NCBI RefSeq assembly: GCF_004214795.1
Contig: NZ_CP035928.1
Coordinates: 1,302,001 to 1,366,000, forward strand
Reading direction: 5' to 3'
DNA length: 64,000 nt
Source of the DNA: Malaciobacter pacificus
Lineage (GTDB): Bacteria > Campylobacterota > Campylobacteria > Campylobacterales > Arcobacteraceae
The notes under the pieces are model-generated. The model saw only the letters and a program-made list of their open reading frames with translations. It searched no databases and was not told the DNA's origin. Within the stretch, counting starts at the first letter, position 1; each line of letters begins with the position of its first letter. The position numbers and the translations under genes are program-made. Shown in pieces: positions 19,187-32,957 of the stretch.

Positions 19187-20230
19187 TTATATTGTTGATG
19201 TATCAATAACATATCTATATCTTGCTTTTTTCTCTTCAACTTTTTTCCAAGCTTCAGTAATCTCGCTTGCCTTAATCATTTGAATTTCTGGTAATACATC
19301 ATTTGCAACACAATAATCAACCATCTCTTGAGTCTCTTTCATACCACCAATCAATGAAGCATTAAAGTTAACTCTACTTGCTGCTAATCCTATATTGCTT
19401 AATGTGATTTCAAATCCTACTGGCATACCAACAAATGTAAAATAACCATCAGGTTTAACAGTAGCAACATAAGGTGCAATTTCAAATTGATAAGGAATTG
19501 TACTAATCATATAATCTAAAGTTTGTGAATGAGCATATAAAGCTTTTGGATCTTCAACTACAATAACTTCTTTTGCACCAAAACCTTTGATATCTTCTTT
19601 CTTTTCAGCACTTGTAGTAAAGGCATAAACTTCAGCACCTTTTGATACAGCAATTTTAACAGCCATATGACCTAAACCACCAATTCCAGCAACACCAACT
19701 TTGTCACCTTTTTTAATATCTGCTTTTATAAGTGGAGAATAAGTTGTAATTCCTGCACAAAGTAGGGGTGCTGCTTTTTCAAAACTTACACCATCAGGTA
19801 AATGAACTGCAAAGTGATCTCTTACAACAATATGTGTTGAGTATCCACCTTGAGTAATCCCCGTTGGTTCTTTTTCTTCTGCATAACCATAAGTAAATTT
19901 TGTATCAGGATGATATTGTTCTTCATTTTCACAAGTTGTACAACCATTTACCATACACCCAACTCCGGCTTTATCACCAACTTTAAATTTTGTAACGTTT
20001 TTTCCAACTTGTGTTACAATTCCTGCTATTTCATGACCTGGAACTTGAGGATATTGTTGTTTACCCCAATGCCCTTTTTCTTGGTGAATATCTGAGTGAC
20101 AAATACTTGCTGCTTTGATTTCAATTAAAACATCATCATCTCCAACAGGTCTTCTTTCAAATTCCCAAGGTTTAATTTCTCCTGATTCGTCAAACGCTGC
20201 ATAAGCTTTTGTTTTTATTGTATTATTCAT
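19187..20230 (-). CDS. Zinc-dependent alcohol dehydrogenase / aldehyde reductase (YahK-like)
   Basis: 347 residues of the medium-chain family. The catalytic zinc ligands begin with ICHSDIHQEKGHW and GHEIAG; the NADPH fold is GVAGIGGLGHMAVKIA. In the structural zinc loop the segment CMVNGCTTCENEEQYH has three cysteines and a histidine where the last cysteine normally stands. Relatives reduce aldehydes to alcohols with NADPH. It is transcribed away from the YqhD-like gene, with shared repeats between them. Confidence 0.88.
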   Translation of the reverse strand: MNNTIKTKAYAAFDESGEIKPWEFERRPVGDDDVLIEIKAASICHSDIHQEKGHWGKQQYPQVPGHEIAGIVTQVGKNVTKFKVGDKAGVGCMVNGCTTCENEEQYHPDTKFTYGYAEEKEPTGITQGGYSTHIVVRDHFAVHLPDGVSFEKAAPLLCAGITTYSPLIKADIKKGDKVGVAGIGGLGHMAVKIAVSKGAEVYAFTTSAEKKEDIKGFGAKEVIVVEDPKALYAHSQTLDYMISTIPYQFEIAPYVATVKPDGYFTFVGMPVGFEITLSNIGLAASRVNFNASLIGGMKETQEMVDYCVANDVLPEIQMIKASEITEAWKKVEEKKARYRYVIDTSTI

Positions 20231-20345
20231 TTTTAATCCTTTATTTTAATTTTTATTATAAATTAGTTTGAAAAAAAGTGTTAGAAAGATACTCTGTATC
20301 TTTTGCATAATTCTCTAAAATATTAATTTTATTCATTTGTAGTAT

Positions 20346-20373
20346 TTGGTATAAAATTTGTAGAAATTGGTAT
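20346..20373 (+). promoter_or_regulatory. Direct repeats, possible AraC-family operator
   Basis: Two copies of TTGGTAT, at 20346-20352 and 20367-20373, are 21 bases apart, i.e. two helical turns on the same face. They lie in the divergent region between the two alcohol dehydrogenase genes, about 60 bases before the YqhD-like start. The spacing and layout fit a dimeric AraC-family activator, most simply the one encoded at 21592-22455. Confidence 0.45.
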
Positions 20374-20433
20374 TCAAAGATTTTTTGATTATCTTTATAA
20401 TACCTTCACAAATTTAATTTAAAAAGGACGCAA

Positions 20434-21573
20434 ATGGAATTTTCTTTTCATAATCCAACAGGTATAGAATTTGGAAAAGGTAAAATCAAAGAGATTTCAA
20501 ACCTAATCCCTAAAGACAAAAAAGTATTAGTAGTTTATGGTGGTGGTTCAGTTAAAAACAATGGAGCTTATGACCAAGTTACAGAAGCTTTAAAAGATCA
20601 CGAATGGTTAGAGTTTGGTGGAGTTGAAGCAAATCCAACAGTTGAAACTATGAACAAAGCAGTTGAACTTGTAAAAGCTCAAGGTGTAAACTATATTCTT
20701 GCAGTTGGTGATGGTTCTGTTATTGATGGTTCAAAATACCTTGCAGCAGCATCTTTATATGATGGTGACGGATGGGATTTCTTAGATGGAACAGCTGAAG
20801 TTCAAGAAGCACTTCCATTAGCAGTTGTATTAACTTTAGCAGCAACTGGTTCAGAATCAAATAACTTAACAGTTGTATCAAGAAAATCAACTGATGAAAA
20901 AAGAATGTATTTCTCAGACCACTCTTACCCTCAATTTGCAGTATTAGACCCGTCATTTATGGGAACTTTATCTGATAGACAACTAGGAAATGGTTTAGTA
21001 GATGCCTTTGTTCATATTTCAGAGCAATACTTAACAAAAACTAATGATTTACTTGTAAATGATGGTTATGCTGAAACTTTATATAAAGGTTTAGTAATCT
21101 TAGCTCAGAAATGGGATGAAAGAAGAACATTATGGTGGCAAGAAAACTTAATGCACATTTGTAATCAAGCACTTAATTTCCAATTAGCAAATGGTGTTTG
21201 TCAAGACTGGTCAACTCATATTATTGGACATGAATTAACTGCATTCTACGGATTAGACCATGCTAGATCTTTAGCAGTAATTTTACCTCACTTAATCAGA
21301 GAAATGATTGATGAGAAACAAGACAAATTAGCACAATTTGGTAAAAATGTATTCGGAATTGAAAATGATAACGAAGCTATTATCAAGAAAATTGAAGAAG
21401 TATTTGAATCTGTTGGTGTACCAACTAAATTAACTGCTTATGAAATTGATGATAAAGTTGTTGAAAATGTACATAATGCATTTAAATCTCACGGTTATTT
21501 AGAAATTGGAGAAAATGGAACTGTTACATTAGATAAGGTTGAAAAAATTATTAACAGATCTATTGCAGCGTAA
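20434..21573 (+). CDS. Iron-containing alcohol dehydrogenase, YqhD-like aldehyde reductase
   Basis: 379 residues. The NADPH site is VVYGGGSVKNNGAYDQV. Metal ligands are in GLVDAFVHISEQYL (Asp and His) and HIIGHELTAFYGLDHARSLAVILPH (two His). YqhD-type enzymes reduce short aldehydes that arise from oxidative damage. As in E. coli, an AraC regulator gene is next to it, here convergent. A ribosome site (AAAAGGA) precedes the ATG. Confidence 0.9.
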   Translation: MEFSFHNPTGIEFGKGKIKEISNLIPKDKKVLVVYGGGSVKNNGAYDQVTEALKDHEWLEFGGVEANPTVETMNKAVELVKAQGVNYILAVGDGSVIDGSKYLAAASLYDGDGWDFLDGTAEVQEALPLAVVLTLAATGSESNNLTVVSRKSTDEKRMYFSDHSYPQFAVLDPSFMGTLSDRQLGNGLVDAFVHISEQYLTKTNDLLVNDGYAETLYKGLVILAQKWDERRTLWWQENLMHICNQALNFQLANGVCQDWSTHIIGHELTAFYGLDHARSLAVILPHLIREMIDEKQDKLAQFGKNVFGIENDNEAIIKKIEEVFESVGVPTKLTAYEIDDKVVENVHNAFKSHGYLEIGENGTVTLDKVEKIINRSIAA

Positions 21574-26428: not shown

Positions 26429-27311
26429 TTAAAATGGAATATCATCAGCATCAAATCCATCATAACGTTCTACAACTTCTAACTTAGTTTCCAAGTTATT
26501 TATAATAATATTTTTTTTACTTTTTGATAAACTTTTGAAAAGATTAATAAAATCTTTTATTAAATTTACTTTTATGCTGTAATGTTTATTATAAGTGTAC
26601 TCTCCATCTAAAAAACATCTACTTAATAATACAGGCGATGGTAAAAACTCCTCAAGCATTGTATTCTTATATAATTGTTCTAACTTTCTTAAAATTTTGT
26701 CATTATCATTAATAAATTTTGTTGAAGATTCTATTGTTGATAAAATACTATACAAGGTATTTGAAAACTCTCTGTAAAGTTGAATCTCAAATTCGTTAAA
26801 ATTTATATCTAAAGCTTTTTCATTCAATATTTTTTTATAACAGTTATTAAATGACTCTATTCTATTAACTGGATTTTTATATGTCATAGCAGATAGTAAT
26901 TCTTTAAATTTAAATTCTTGTATATTTTGTTCTAATATAATTTTTTCAATTAATTTGCCAATGAAATACACTTCAGTTTTAAAATTGTATATTTTGTTCA
27001 AAAAATCATTTGGTGTTTCACACCACCAATTTAAAGTTATACTTTTGTCAAAATCTTTTTCAAAATGAACTTTTTTACCAAATCCAAAATCTATAATTTT
27101 AACCAACCCACTATTGTCAACCATTATATTGTATGGTCTCATATCTCTATGTAAAATATTATGTTCTTCCAAATATTTAAAACCATTAATAAGTTGAAGA
27201 AAAATATCATTAATTTGTTCAGGTGATTTCTCTATATATTTTTCAATATCTTCACCTTGAATATATTCCATCAAAATATATCCTGTAAAATATTCAGGAT
27301 AAAGATAATAA
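26429..27311 (-). pseudogene. Protein kinase, C-terminal part (split by IS)
   Basis: C-terminal part of a Ser/Thr-type protein kinase. Clear motifs are the hinge YILMEYIQGEDIE, the catalytic loop ILHRDMRPYNIM (HRDxxxxN) and IIDFGFGKK, i.e. DFG. The frame could be read from an ATG at 27325, but that ATG and the first residues come from the IS end. Beyond the 7-base target duplication it continues in frame into the N-lobe fragment at 28876-29121; together 373 residues. Without the N-lobe the protein cannot bind ATP. Confidence 0.87.
27305..27311. repeat. Target-site duplication, left copy
   Basis: ATAATAA directly before the left inverted repeat of the IS; the same seven bases follow the right inverted repeat at 28876-28882. 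Confidence 0.85.
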
Positions 27312-28875
27312 CTTAACTTTCGCACGTTAAATTGATTAAAATTGTAGCTAAATCTCCCTAAAACATTACTCCTTTAGTTAATAATCTTATCCTTGTTGAC
27401 ATAAAAATAATTTAGTTGTTTTTCTATGATATTTTTCTATTTTGAACTCTCAATAAAGCCCTTAAATAGGCACTTTTAGCTATAATATCTATTATATTAA
27501 AGGGTAAGAATGCAGATAGAATCCAAGATCATCGGTATTATAAACGATAAGTTAAAAAATCCAATCTATGAAACATTACGTTTGTTAAATATGAAAACTA
27601 TTTTAACCAAGAGCAATTTTTCTAAAAAAGAGGGAGTTGCTGTTCATATGGTTGTATTACATTTTGTATATATGCTGGTTATGAATAAAAAAATATCAAC
27701 CTTTATGGATCAAAGTAATGATAGTTTCAAAAAAGATGTATATTATCGATTACTTTCCAATACTTCTTATAATTGGAGAAAACTATTATCTCTTAGTTCT
27801 TTAAAGATCTTATCACTACTTCATAAAGTGCAAGATTCAAAGCTAGTAAGAGTTCTTATACTTGATGATACTGTTGAAGATAAAGTTGGTAAAAATATAG
27901 AGGGAAGTTGTGACAACCTTTGGAGCAATAAAGCAAAGAGAAAAATCAGAGGTGTAAATGTTGTATCACTAAACTATAGTGATGGTTATTCAAATTTTAT
28001 GTTGGACTTTGCAATTGCTATGAACAGTTATGCAAGGGTAAAGATAGAAGAGTTTACAAATATTATTGATCATCGAACCAATGCACATAAGCGAAGATTG
28101 GAAAGCTTAAAAGGGAAATCACAAATTGCTATAGAGATGATTAAAAGAGCAGTAGCTAGTGGTATATATGCAGATTATCTGCTTGTAGATAGCTGGTATT
28201 CTAAACCTGTATTTATAGAAACTATGAATGAACTTGGATTGCAAGTCATTTCAAGAATGGTAAACAATGACAGGATATGGAATTTTACAGGAGAGAAAAA
28301 GACCCTTGATGGCATCTATAACAAATTTAAAAAGCTTAAATCTATCAAGATGGGTCAATATGGCAAAAAGATAAAGTTTGAGTATTTTTCAACCATAGTT
28401 GAACATAAAAAAGCTGGTAAATTAAAAATTGTTTTTATAAAAACAAAAGAGAATTTAATACCAATCGTATCAACCAATCTTATACTTAGTGATGAAGAGA
28501 TTATAGATATTTATAAAAGACGATGGGATATAGAACAAGGGTATAAAGAACTTCGTGAACACTTTGGATTCGGAAAAGAAGAGAATCGAATCTATGAAGC
28601 TTTGATAGCCAGAATTACACTATCTTTTTTTACATACAATGTTGTTAGCTATATAAATCGTATCAGCAATGAACCTAAAACAATTGGTGGATTGTTTAAA
28701 GATTTAGAATGTGAACTTCATACTCTAGCAATAGCTATGCAAGCATTTTTAGCTATTTTAGATGAGATTGCAAAAATTGAAGAAGTTGTCAATAGAAATG
28801 AGGATTTTACAGCTATCATTGATCTATTAAGAGATGTGACTGGAAAATTGCTTGGTTTTAGGTGCGAAAGTTAAG
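27312..28875. mobile_element. IS4-type insertion sequence
   Basis: 1564 bases with perfect 14-bp terminal inverted repeats CTTAACTTTCGCAC (27312-27325) and GTGCGAAAGTTAAG (28862-28875). It is flanked by the 7-bp duplication ATAATAA. It carries one transposase gene whose stop codon lies inside the right inverted repeat. The target is the kinase gene of cassette 3, which it splits. Target and ends look undamaged, so the insertion is probably recent. Confidence 0.93.
27510..28874 (+). CDS. IS4-family DDE transposase
   Basis: 454 residues. The DDE triad is visible as VLILDDTVEDK, LLVDSWYSK and the C-terminal IYKRRWDIEQGYKELREHFG, a version of the Y-R-E-K motif of IS4 elements. A 7-bp target duplication would fit the ISPepr1-like branch, but that placement is tentative. 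Full length, with AAGGGTAAG before the ATG, so it may be active. Confidence 0.9.
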   Translation: MQIESKIIGIINDKLKNPIYETLRLLNMKTILTKSNFSKKEGVAVHMVVLHFVYMLVMNKKISTFMDQSNDSFKKDVYYRLLSNTSYNWRKLLSLSSLKILSLLHKVQDSKLVRVLILDDTVEDKVGKNIEGSCDNLWSNKAKRKIRGVNVVSLNYSDGYSNFMLDFAIAMNSYARVKIEEFTNIIDHRTNAHKRRLESLKGKSQIAIEMIKRAVASGIYADYLLVDSWYSKPVFIETMNELGLQVISRMVNNDRIWNFTGEKKTLDGIYNKFKKLKSIKMGQYGKKIKFEYFSTIVEHKKAGKLKIVFIKTKENLIPIVSTNLILSDEEIIDIYKRRWDIEQGYKELREHFGFGKEENRIYEALIARITLSFFTYNVVSYINRISNEPKTIGGLFKDLECELHTLAIAMQAFLAILDEIAKIEEVVNRNEDFTAIIDLLRDVTGKLLGFRCES

Positions 28876-28882
28876 ATAATAA
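28876..28882. repeat. Target-site duplication, right copy
   Basis: ATAATAA directly after the right inverted repeat, matching 27305-27311. Confidence 0.85.
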
Positions 28883-29121
28883 TTGAATATTCTAACTACA
28901 TTTTTATGATAAAGCATATGAAGGAGTTTTATTTCATCCTTAAAGTTTTTATAATATTCTTCTTTTAGTTTAGCGGAAAAAGGGGAGTATTTTTTACATA
29001 CAAAATCTTCATCAATAGTTTCATCTCTGAGTAAAATTGTTTTACCAAATGCACTTTCACCTATATTTTTAATTTTTTTAAATGGTTTTTTTCTAGTAAA
29101 CTCTATAACATCTTCTGACAT
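28876..29121 (-). pseudogene. Protein kinase, N-terminal part (split by IS)
   Basis: About 82 residues starting MSEDVIEF after an AGGATGG ribosome site. This is the kinase N-lobe: a glycine-rich-loop-like IGESAFGKTILL, a lysine in FVCKKYSP and helix C in DEIKLLHMLYHKNVVRIFNYY. It joins in frame to the fragment at 26429-27311 when the IS and one ATAATAA copy are removed (reading FNYYLYPEYFTGYI). Kinases of this sort on mobile DNA are sometimes anti-phage, but that is inference. Confidence 0.87.
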
Positions 29122-29406: not shown

Positions 29407-29829
29407 TTAGTCTACCTTTGTTATTTCAATAGTTCCACTTAAAGTTTTAATATCATCAATACCTGAAGTTACAAAACCTAATTCATATAAACCACCAGCA
29501 CTTCCAAAATCTTTATAAAACATAACTACATCACCCCAAGGTGCATAATAAGCTAGTATTCCTTTTTTTGCATTTGCAAGTGGTGTGTTTGAAGTTGATA
29601 GTTTATTTGGTGGATAAAATATCTTTTCCATTGAAGCATAATCTTCAACTTTGATTTTTAATGGTAATTGATTTAGAAGCTCTTTTGAAGCATCTGAATT
29701 ATTTAGTTCAAAAACTATTATTTTACCATTTGATTCTACACTTATTTTCATTTTGTTTCCTTTTTCATTTGCTAATAATATAATTGGAGTTATTAAGCAA
29801 AGTAATATATTTAAAATTTTTTTACTCAT
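29407..29829 (-). CDS. Exported cyclophilin-like protein
   Basis: 140 residues with a signal peptide (MSKKILNILLCLITPIILLA). The mature domain (MKISVESNGKIIVFELNNSD...ILAYYAPWGDVVMFY...GLYELGFVTSG) matches the cyclophilin-like fold family found beside flavin or quinone reductases; these are not known to be active isomerases. It overlaps the upstream transporter gene by eight bases, so it belongs to the cupin operon. Confidence 0.78.
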   Translation of the reverse strand: MSKKILNILLCLITPIILLANEKGNKMKISVESNGKIIVFELNNSDASKELLNQLPLKIKVEDYASMEKIFYPPNKLSTSNTPLANAKKGILAYYAPWGDVVMFYKDFGSAGGLYELGFVTSGIDDIKTLSGTIEITKVD

Positions 29830-31336
29830 GATTAACCTCTACTAATTTTGGTTTTCTAGCAAATATAAGAGTTAGTATACATGCACTTATTGCTAAAACA
29901 CCATAAAATATCGATACATGAAATAAATCCATATAATGTGACATTTGACCTGCTATAAAACTAGGAATCGCAGCACCTGCGTATGATGTTGCATAAATAA
30001 GTGATAATATTCCTGCTCTCTCTTGAATTGTTACATCTTTCATAACTGATCTTATACTTCCTGTTAGTACTGCTCCTTGAGATGCTCCTGCAACTGCACT
30101 TGAAAGTATAAACAACCATAAACTAGATATCTTTAGTGAAAAGATAATCCCCATAACGCCAATACTAAAACAAAACATAGCAACTCTTTGAGCATCAGCA
30201 GGCTCTAATTTTGCACTAATAGGTCCTCCAATGGCACTAGGTAAAAGGTATGAACCAAATAAAATTGCTATTATAAGTGTATTGTGAGTTCCAAGTTGGT
30301 CAACTGCTATTGATGGACCAAATGCTTGATAAAATGCTCCCATAGCCCAAGTTGATACAAAAGTAACTGCTGCTATTGGAAAAAACTTTTTGCCTTTTAT
30401 AGGTAGTGAAAATTTTGGTTTTAGTGATTTTAATAATCCTGGAGTTTTTTGTACTGTTTCATCACTGTAAGCTATTAAAATAGTACAAATTGCTAAAACT
30501 ACTAATATGAAAACATAACATAAAACTCTTTGATAAGGTGCAAACTGTACTAATGACCCAGAAATTAAAGCACCAATTGTTAGACCAATCATTGGAGAGT
30601 TACTCACTATTGCTGCAGGAACCCACTGGGGTAAAGAAGTTCCATTATCAACGATATATGATGTAATTGAACTAGATGCTAAACCACAAGCAAGTCCAAG
30701 TAAAAGTCTTGCAAAAATCAGTATTTCAGCACTGTTTACATCAAGAAGCATAATTGTAGCAATTGTAGTTAAGGCAAAGATGATAAAAGCTACTGGTTTT
30801 CTTCCTAAGTGGTTTGAGATTCTTCCAAAGAAAAGTAGGGCTGTAATAGCACCTATAAAGTAAACAACTGCAGTTAATGCTAAGTCATTATATGTTAAGT
30901 GCTCTTCAATTCTATAAATGTCATATAAAGGTATTGGTGTAGCAGAAGCAGCAAATACCATAAGAAATGAGATACTTGCTGCTATAAAGCTGATATTTAA
31001 ACTTGCAACTTTTCCTTCAATATCATCTATTCCAGTTTTTTTTCTTTCATTTATTAAGTTCATAAATATATTTTGTGCATTTAAACTTCTTGGAAATCCA
31101 ACATAAGCATATAAATGTGCAAAAATTTCTTTGATTTCATTTTGAGTAAGTCCTGCTTTTAAACCTTTTATTAGTGATTTTCTTAAACTCTCTAAATCTC
31201 CACTAGCACTAAAAGCAGAGATTTCTATAGTTGCTATCTCTTTTTTATCTAGTTCTTCAAATTTTGTTCCACCAGTTTCATTTGCAAATACAAATAGTGG
31301 TAAAAATAAAAATAGTTTTAATATTTGTTTCATCAT
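29822..31336 (-). CDS. Fusion of a CMD-domain half and an MFS transporter
   Basis: 504 residues. Residues 1-20 are a signal peptide. Residues about 25-110 (KEIATIEISAFSASGDLESL, then LYAYVGFPRSLNAQN and DDIEGK) are the first half of an exported carboxymuconolactone decarboxylase-type protein. After DIEGK the protein turns directly into a 12-helix MFS transporter with GRISNHLGRKPV and many membrane helices. The CMD half lacks its second repeat. The likely cause is a deletion joining two genes. The cupin upstream is the normal partner of such CMD proteins. Confidence 0.85.
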   Translation of the reverse strand: MMKQILKLFLFLPLFVFANETGGTKFEELDKKEIATIEISAFSASGDLESLRKSLIKGLKAGLTQNEIKEIFAHLYAYVGFPRSLNAQNIFMNLINERKKTGIDDIEGKVASLNISFIAASISFLMVFAASATPIPLYDIYRIEEHLTYNDLALTAVVYFIGAITALLFFGRISNHLGRKPVAFIIFALTTIATIMLLDVNSAEILIFARLLLGLACGLASSSITSYIVDNGTSLPQWVPAAIVSNSPMIGLTIGALISGSLVQFAPYQRVLCYVFILVVLAICTILIAYSDETVQKTPGLLKSLKPKFSLPIKGKKFFPIAAVTFVSTWAMGAFYQAFGPSIAVDQLGTHNTLIIAILFGSYLLPSAIGGPISAKLEPADAQRVAMFCFSIGVMGIIFSLKISSLWLFILSSAVAGASQGAVLTGSIRSVMKDVTIQERAGILSLIYATSYAGAAIPSFIAGQMSHYMDLFHVSIFYGVLAISACILTLIFARKPKLVEVNHE

Positions 31337-31344
31337 AAATCCTT

Positions 31345-31842
31345 TTATTTTGAATTATATTGTTCATCAGTTACTGGTTCCATCCAGTTTACATTTTTAC
31401 CTGTTTTTTCAACTGCACCAGTAATTACTAAGTGAGTCATTGCAATATCTTTTGATGCTCCATGCCAGTGTTTTACACCAATTGGACACCAAACAACATC
31501 ACCTTCTTTTACTGTCTCTTTTTTACCATCCCAAGTTTGTGTATATCCAACACCTTTTGTAACTATGATATGCTGACCTGCTGGATGAGTGTGCCAGTTT
31601 GATCTTGCTCCTGGTTCAAAAGTTACATATGCTCCTGAGTGAGTTTTTGTATTTCCTTTTGGATAGACAGGGTCGATTCTAACTTCTCCACCACTAAAAT
31701 ACTTTTTAAAATCTGTTTTGTTTACAACAATAGATTTTCTATCTTCAAGTCTTGTAATAGTTTGTTCATTTTTAATTTCACTTGCTTGAGTTTGACTAAT
31801 CGATAATAAGGCTAAAACTGCCGTAGTTGTAATTAATTTCAT
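31345..31842 (-). CDS. Exported cupin protein
   Basis: 165 residues with a signal peptide (MKLITTTAVLALLSISQTQA). The cupin barrel carries the metal-binding pattern WHTHPAGQHIIVTKG (histidines) and VWCPIGVKHWHGAS. It is the first gene of the cupin, CMD-MFS, cyclophilin-like operon, which lies opposite an AraC regulator. A periplasmic small-molecule binding or oxidase role is likely, substrate unknown. Confidence 0.87.
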   Translation of the reverse strand: MKLITTTAVLALLSISQTQASEIKNEQTITRLEDRKSIVVNKTDFKKYFSGGEVRIDPVYPKGNTKTHSGAYVTFEPGARSNWHTHPAGQHIIVTKGVGYTQTWDGKKETVKEGDVVWCPIGVKHWHGASKDIAMTHLVITGAVEKTGKNVNWMEPVTDEQYNSK

Positions 31843-31967: not shown

Positions 31968-32042
31968 ATACAGAATTTTTCTTGTTTAATCTATAAATAT
32001 TTAATATAATTAAAATGGATTATATTGCTTAAAAGGATTATT

Positions 32043-32957
32043 ATGGAAGATTATTTAGTACAAGCAAGAGAAGATTTAATAGAATTTATAAATAAAAAAT
32101 ATAGTTTAGAAAATGGATTATTACAAAGTGAAATTGAGTGTTTAGATTTTTTCTATTCTACATCAACTACAGAGTTCGATGCAATAATGTATGAGCCATC
32201 ACTTTGCGTTATATTACAAGGGTCAAAAGCCGTTGGTTTTGGAGAAAAACTTTACCAATATAGTCCAAGTGAGTATTTACTTTCATCAACACATGTACCT
32301 GCAAATATTAGGATATTAGAAGCAAGTGAAGATACTCCTTATTTATCTTTTAGAATTAGATTTGGATTAGAAGATATTTACGAAGTATTAAAAAATACTA
32401 ATCCATCAAAATTAGAGTTTCAAAAAAAATCAGAAAAAGGACTTTTCTTTGATGATTTAAACTACTCTTTATATGAACCAATGACTAGATTAGTTAAGTT
32501 ACTTGAAAAGCCCAAAGAAGATATTGAGTATTTAGCTCCTTTTATTATAAAAGAGATTTTATATAAGCTAATAAATGATAAAAGTGGATACTTCTTAAAT
32601 AAATTTGTAATGGAAGGTACAACATCAAATAAGGTTGTTAAGGCTATTACTGAGATTAAAAATAAATTTAATGAAAAATTAAATATTAAAGAATTAGCAA
32701 ACCTTGTTGAAATGAGTGAATCATCTTTATATCAAAATTTTAAAACAATTACTTCAATGACACCAATACAGTTTCAAAAAAATCTTAGACTCCAAGAAGC
32801 TAAGCAAATATTATCTGTTAGAAATATTGAAGTTAGTGAGGTGGCTTTTGCAGTAGGGTATGAATCACCATCTCAATTTAGTAGAGAGTATTCTAGAATG
32901 TTTGGAATCTCTCCCAAAGCCCATAGTGATATTTTAAAAGGACAAGTTAGTGCCTAA
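32043..32957 (+). CDS. AraC-family transcriptional regulator
   Basis: 304 residues from the ATG at 32043 with AAGGA upstream; an in-frame TTG at 32025 has no ribosome site. The N-terminal AraC_N domain (MYEPSLCVILQGSKAVGFG) is followed by the two helix-turn-helices, LVEMSESSLYQNFKTITSMTP and AVGYESPSQFSREYSRMFGISP. Divergent from the cupin operon, which it probably controls. Confidence 0.9.
   Translation: MEDYLVQAREDLIEFINKKYSLENGLLQSEIECLDFFYSTSTTEFDAIMYEPSLCVILQGSKAVGFGEKLYQYSPSEYLLSSTHVPANIRILEASEDTPYLSFRIRFGLEDIYEVLKNTNPSKLEFQKKSEKGLFFDDLNYSLYEPMTRLVKLLEKPKEDIEYLAPFIIKEILYKLINDKSGYFLNKFVMEGTTSNKVVKAITEIKNKFNEKLNIKELANLVEMSESSLYQNFKTITSMTPIQFQKNLRLQEAKQILSVRNIEVSEVAFAVGYESPSQFSREYSRMFGISPKAHSDILKGQVSA

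Follow-up and report, generated by a model that had tools for sequence, protein, structure and literature searches.

The exported CMDs of cupin-CMD operons (in G445, G420, G374 and other genomes, with 4g9q as a solved relative) share a leader, repeat 1 and a cupin-adjacent position with the gene described here; they keep repeat 2, whereas this gene has an MFS transporter in its place. The separate MFS of the same gene module has the same 12-helix body and the same loop 2-3 motif, a mark of the MFS family, at 66-76% identity within the bacterial family and 45% in the Escherichia coli plasmid NC_019094.1; unlike the fused copy, it has its own start and promoter and no CMD ahead of it. On that plasmid, the MFS, ADH, cyclophilin-like, cupin and CMD genes stand in a row, and therefore the genes of the module keep company in distant bacteria too. 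MFS transporters of the NorA, MdfA and VMAT2 type have the N-terminus inside; they are alike in fold and show weak sequence similarity (NorA, E 5e-7), but lack the exported front domain that the fusion has. Another fusion within the module is found at 748-1881 of L020 (G077), where a CMD matched in two stretches is in frame with a cupin domain. It likewise joins two module members but, unlike the fusion reported here, retains two CMD stretches and has a soluble partner, with no topology conflict.

In the window (the whole 64,000-nucleotide stretch of the Malaciobacter pacificus chromosome that was analysed), the gene order is ADH, BDH, other genes, the cyclophilin-like gene, the MFS::CMD-half fusion, the cupin gene and AraC2 (Table 1). 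The ORF listing gives the fusion as a single unbroken frame of 504 codons, which is equally open in the one-contig 2.66-Mb genome that contains the window. Its N-terminal part matches the CMD profile PF02627 at residues 26-90 (E 1.9e-7; 31.4 bits versus a cut-off of 23), and the best stretch of the MFS_1 profile PF07690 covers residues 121-396 (E 1.3e-25; 90.5 bits versus 33.4). With the ORF intact and both profiles above their cut-offs, the central claim of the earlier note, that half of an exported CMD is fused in frame to an MFS transporter, is confirmed. Neither part reaches a narrower class: the half-CMD falls below the PcaC equivalog cut-off (TIGR02425; 21.1 versus 155.7 bits, with 65.2 bits for the CMD of G445) and the MFS part below the Bcr/CflA efflux subfamily cut-off (TIGR00710; 39.7 versus 200.9 bits). 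A hydropathy scan detected the first 18 residues, which look by eye like a signal peptide, and then 12 hydrophobic segments from residue 110 onward. A hydrophobic leader, judged by eye, also opens the CMD in 13 of the 14 aligned relatives. The ATG start, ribosome-binding site and signal peptide of the CMD now head the sole recognised source of the transporter, and the Shine-Dalgarno duplex at the ORF start has an energy of -5.4 kcal/mol.

Table 1. Features of the fusion locus and of the donor region (window coordinates)
Feature	Position	Strand	Remarks
Fusion ORF (signal peptide, CMD repeat 1, MFS)	29822..31336	-	504 aa, ATG start
Signal peptide MMKQILKLFLFLPLFVFA	31283..31336	-	First 18 residues; cleavage site by eye
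CMD repeat 1, mature part	31001..31282	-	PF02627 profile, model, fold neighbours
MFS transporter, 12 helices, loop 2-3 motif GRISNHLGRKP	29822..31000	-	Profile, hydropathy, model
Fusion junction, codon 112 / codon 113	31000..31001	-	Alignment to six relatives, blastn
Cyclophilin-like protein (PF18050), leader by eye	29407..29829	-	Profile and gene-order comparison, alignment
Cupin gene upstream in the operon, leader by eye	31345..31842	-	8 nt before fusion start
AraC-type regulator AraC2, divergent from cupin-CMD operon	32025..32957	+	Profile and gene order
Donor site, intergenic	20231..20433	.	Fronts ADH here; between MFS and BDH in 4 of 6 relatives
Alcohol dehydrogenase ADH	19187..20230	-	Starts at former MFS start position; without Tat-type leader
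Iron-type alcohol dehydrogenase BDH	20434..21573	+	Divergent from ADH here, from MFS in 4 of 6 relatives

Structure models were made with two alignments that set CMD rows against MFS columns excluded. Modelled alone, the half-CMD forms a four-helix domain plus the leader (mean pLDDT 85, above 90 over residues 31-110), and the solved folds nearest to it are CMD proteins (best 2af7, E 4.2e-3). The alignment used for the whole fusion held no CMD rows, and the CMD part of that model is not confident. Its MFS part is confident, with ten-residue blocks mostly at 80-96, and the nearest solved structures are VMAT2, NorA, MdfA and other MFS proteins.

Alignment to the relatives places the join precisely. 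CMD homology extends through codon 112 (...DIEGKVAS versus ...GK[EK]AS-P in the relatives, one of which has GKESS), and MFS homology begins at codon 113 (LNISFIAAS; the closest counterpart is KLNISFIAS in G448), such that the fused MFS lacks only about six N-terminal residues. Consistently, blastn matches on the CMD side stop at 31001 (L039) and those on the MFS side at 31000 (L040). The direct run of the CMD into the MFS proposed earlier is correct, but the join lies three codons beyond the DDIEGK at which it had been set. An A8 run ahead of the junction was considered as a site of slippage and rejected, since both shifted frames hit stops within a few codons; the run is also present in G445 and does not look selected.

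The combination was found in a single genome. In a phylum sample, 16 of 397 genomes gave matches at E <= 1e-8; the genome containing the window, the sole representative of its genus among the genomes compared, is alone in having a match that covers both parts. In the family sample, 8 of 104 genomes matched: that of the window, six with separate genes, and one with a weak MFS match. Each of the six relatives, which belong to two other genera, gave one MFS-only and one CMD-only match. No fusion occurs among the matches listed in another class (116 matching of 394 genomes); the earliest start among these, at residue 44 in G838, belongs to a sequence with no CMD by eye. L035, with an apparent start at residue 57, was likewise rejected as a second fusion, because blastp of its ORF begins at 114. 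Among plasmids, the best 40 of 268 matching records are all MFS and none begins before residue 76, while viral contigs gave no match. A literature search returned nothing that appeared to concern a CMD-MFS fusion or the gene module. The same fusion in many independent genomes, named earlier as the observation that would make it an established architecture, was thus not found in the 397 phylum genomes, the 104 family genomes, or the matches listed from plasmids and from the other class.

The six family genomes with separate genes (CMDs of 234-238 aa, with two repeats in each of the three scanned) reveal the arrangement from which the fusion departs. In these relatives, the CMD gene lies behind the cupin gene, an AraC-type regulator is divergent from the CMD-cupin pair, and the MFS gene is followed by the cyclophilin-like and ADH genes, with a small cupin gene or another ORF between them in some. 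In five of the six, MFS and CMD occupy opposite strands at distances of 4.2, 6.4, 8.7, 9.4 and 9.7 kb; G447 has them on separate contigs. The expectation of separate CMD and MFS genes was therefore borne out, but not their expected position between the cupin and cyclophilin-like genes, since the cyclophilin-like gene follows MFS and not CMD. The proposal that the fusion arose by a deletion between two adjacent genes does not agree with these distances and orientations: in each of the five relatives whose CMD and MFS share a contig, the two are non-adjacent, and a simple deletion is therefore insufficient. In G448, the MFS frame (5698-6885 of L040) lacks any ATG, GTG or TTG from the upstream stop to helix 1; a non-standard start, AGGAG followed by AAATAATC, is possible there.

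The second CMD repeat, which had been described as missing, is absent from the ORF, and the fusion departs in this from the two-repeat organization of the module's exported CMDs. A full CMD query revealed no trace of repeat 2 elsewhere in the genome, and the fused copy is the sole genome-wide match to the CMD family profile. At the other end of the rearrangement, the conserved region upstream of the relatives' MFS now sits upstream of ADH, which begins at the old MFS start position, according to an alignment that took in four of the six relatives. Gene-order comparison thus calls for a relocation of the MFS-cyclophilin pair, through an inversion or a transposition in which the cyclophilin-like gene moved together with MFS, and for the loss of the CMD 3' half. 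As this comparison shows, the pair left its own operon, divergent from BDH, and entered the cupin-CMD operon. The breakpoints lie shortly behind the MFS start and where CMD repeat 1 ends; repeat 2 was lost and the frame stayed open. Since the relatives have MFS and CMD in divergent orientation, a single inversion that breaks at the MFS start and in mid-CMD would suffice for the head-to-tail join, and the present gene order would then require at least one further rearrangement, along a path that we can only infer. With donor and acceptor scars both visible in the window, the origin is unusually readable.

Whether the product can work as a transporter depends on its topology. According to PMC13261788, the chain behind a signal peptide is translocated up to the next helix, which halts the process, and loop charges follow the positive-inside rule. 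In the N-in layout of the fused MFS, counted after helix 1, 18 K/R residues lie in the cytoplasmic loops and the tail versus 2 in the periplasmic loops. If the signal peptide exports the CMD half, helix 1 would begin on the outer side of the membrane and this orientation would be inverted. The conflict raised in the earlier note is therefore real on paper, as judged from the predicted loops: their charges favour N-in, with both termini in the cytoplasm, opposite to the orientation dictated by the signal peptide. The stretch ahead of helix 1 (NERKKTGIDDIEGK) is also K/R-rich, like the N-termini of the relatives' own MFS, and therefore the orientation signals compete. The compensating extra helix that had been suggested was not found by the hydropathy scan between residues 20 and 109. 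In multispanning proteins with conflicting charges, a helix can stay uninserted. For the 12 helices to adopt the N-in layout, some of the molecules would need to have their signal peptide cleaved, bypassed or overridden; otherwise, the transporter would be expected to insert poorly and be topologically frustrated. Because the loop charges contradict the signal-peptide orientation, a working transporter is not guaranteed. We consider it improbable that the fusion is one with the CMD half in the periplasm and the MFS normally oriented, for example with helix 1 held out or re-inserted. If it were, a 12-helix transporter would be tolerating topological frustration in nature, and a periplasmic half-enzyme would be physically tethered to a pump from its own pathway. 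A working fusion would provide a natural test of how strongly loop charges override the signal peptide when the protein is polytopic, and of whether the module members (MFS, ADH, cyclophilin-like, cupin and CMD) act together; a non-working one would be a clear case of a rearrangement caught with both scars visible.

The best explanation, which we regard as reasonably probable, is that the fusion was made by rearrangement and is used for its MFS part now, or was until recently, with the CMD activity lost or reduced. The fused MFS differs at 14 of 208 sites invariant in the other six sequences, against 12 of 206 for that of G445; the six relatives range from 1/195 to 23/217 (pooled 54/1218), and the excess in the window is not significant (Fisher p 0.16). 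Divergence from the G445 MFS at the codon positions is 0.23/0.12/0.46. These tests assume independent sites and give no date for the fusion, which the conservation could predate. The absence of decay at conserved MFS positions does not favour the idea that the transporter is dead; the transporter half is probably still under selection, or was until recently. The use of the polypeptide for its MFS part is further suggested by the start of the cyclophilin-like gene, which overlaps the fusion stop (ATGAGTAA). The CMD activity, in turn, has probably been lost or reduced. The half-CMD shows changes at 5 of 34 invariant sites in the seven-taxon set against a pooled 5 of 179 (nominal p 0.011), but this signal is weak, because in a 15-sequence set only 1 of 24 sites is changed (V to L; 0-2 of 23-25 in the others) and the half-CMD retains the remaining 23 positions invariant in 14 phylum relatives.

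The alternative that the fusion is a recent dead end, with both activities destroyed and the gene intact merely through its youth, appears unlikely, although it is not to be dismissed lightly. Its occurrence in a single genome, the orientation conflict between the signal peptide and the loop charges, the lack of an internal start signal for the MFS, and the seven-taxon excess of changes in the half-CMD and in AraC2 (28/175 versus a pooled 23/905) all agree with it. However, the frame contains no stop or frameshift, the excess of MFS changes is not significant, and the 8-nt overlap between the MFS and cyclophilin-like genes (45-130 nt lie between the listed ORFs in the relatives), together with the fully tidied donor site, suggests some age.

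Separate production of the MFS by internal initiation would give a normal topology, with the CMD half as a by-product. An in-frame ATG (M92) does lie about 20 codons ahead of the first helix and is followed by the K/R-rich NERKK, reminiscent of the K/R-rich MFS N-termini of the relatives, but no Shine-Dalgarno match precedes it and the duplex energy there is +1.4 kcal/mol versus -5.4 at the ORF start, which makes this reading rather doubtful. That two genes were joined artificially, by an assembly or sequencing error, is highly improbable, because the donor site carries the matching rearrangement; moreover, the genome is one contig with neither a second MFS copy nor the second half of the CMD elsewhere, and the gene order is changed consistently across the cluster. 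On the genomes searched, the fusion is most likely genuine and lineage-specific, with its transporter half in use now or until recently.

An IS at 27312-28875, within the interval 27305-28882, encodes a DDE transposase; its 14-bp inverted repeats are intact, it is accompanied by a 7-bp duplication (ATAATAA), and it interrupts a Ser/Thr-kinase-like gene, whose parts now lie at 26429-27325 and 28858-29121. We considered it as the cause of the rearrangement and rejected it, since with intact ends and the duplication it looks like a clean insertion into the kinase-like gene about 0.5 kb away and not like a breakpoint; the inverted-repeat ends of the IS were not among the repeats found in a repeat scan. 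The zinc ADH (19187-20230) lacks the Tat-type leader of about 40 residues (RR[DE]F...) that is present in all six relatives, and has probably switched from an exported to a cytoplasmic protein on acquiring the MFS promoter. The excess of changes at invariant sites in AraC2 (p 7e-11) may possibly reflect retuning or relaxation of this regulator, and MarR is also high in this respect, with 10 of 63 invariant sites changed.
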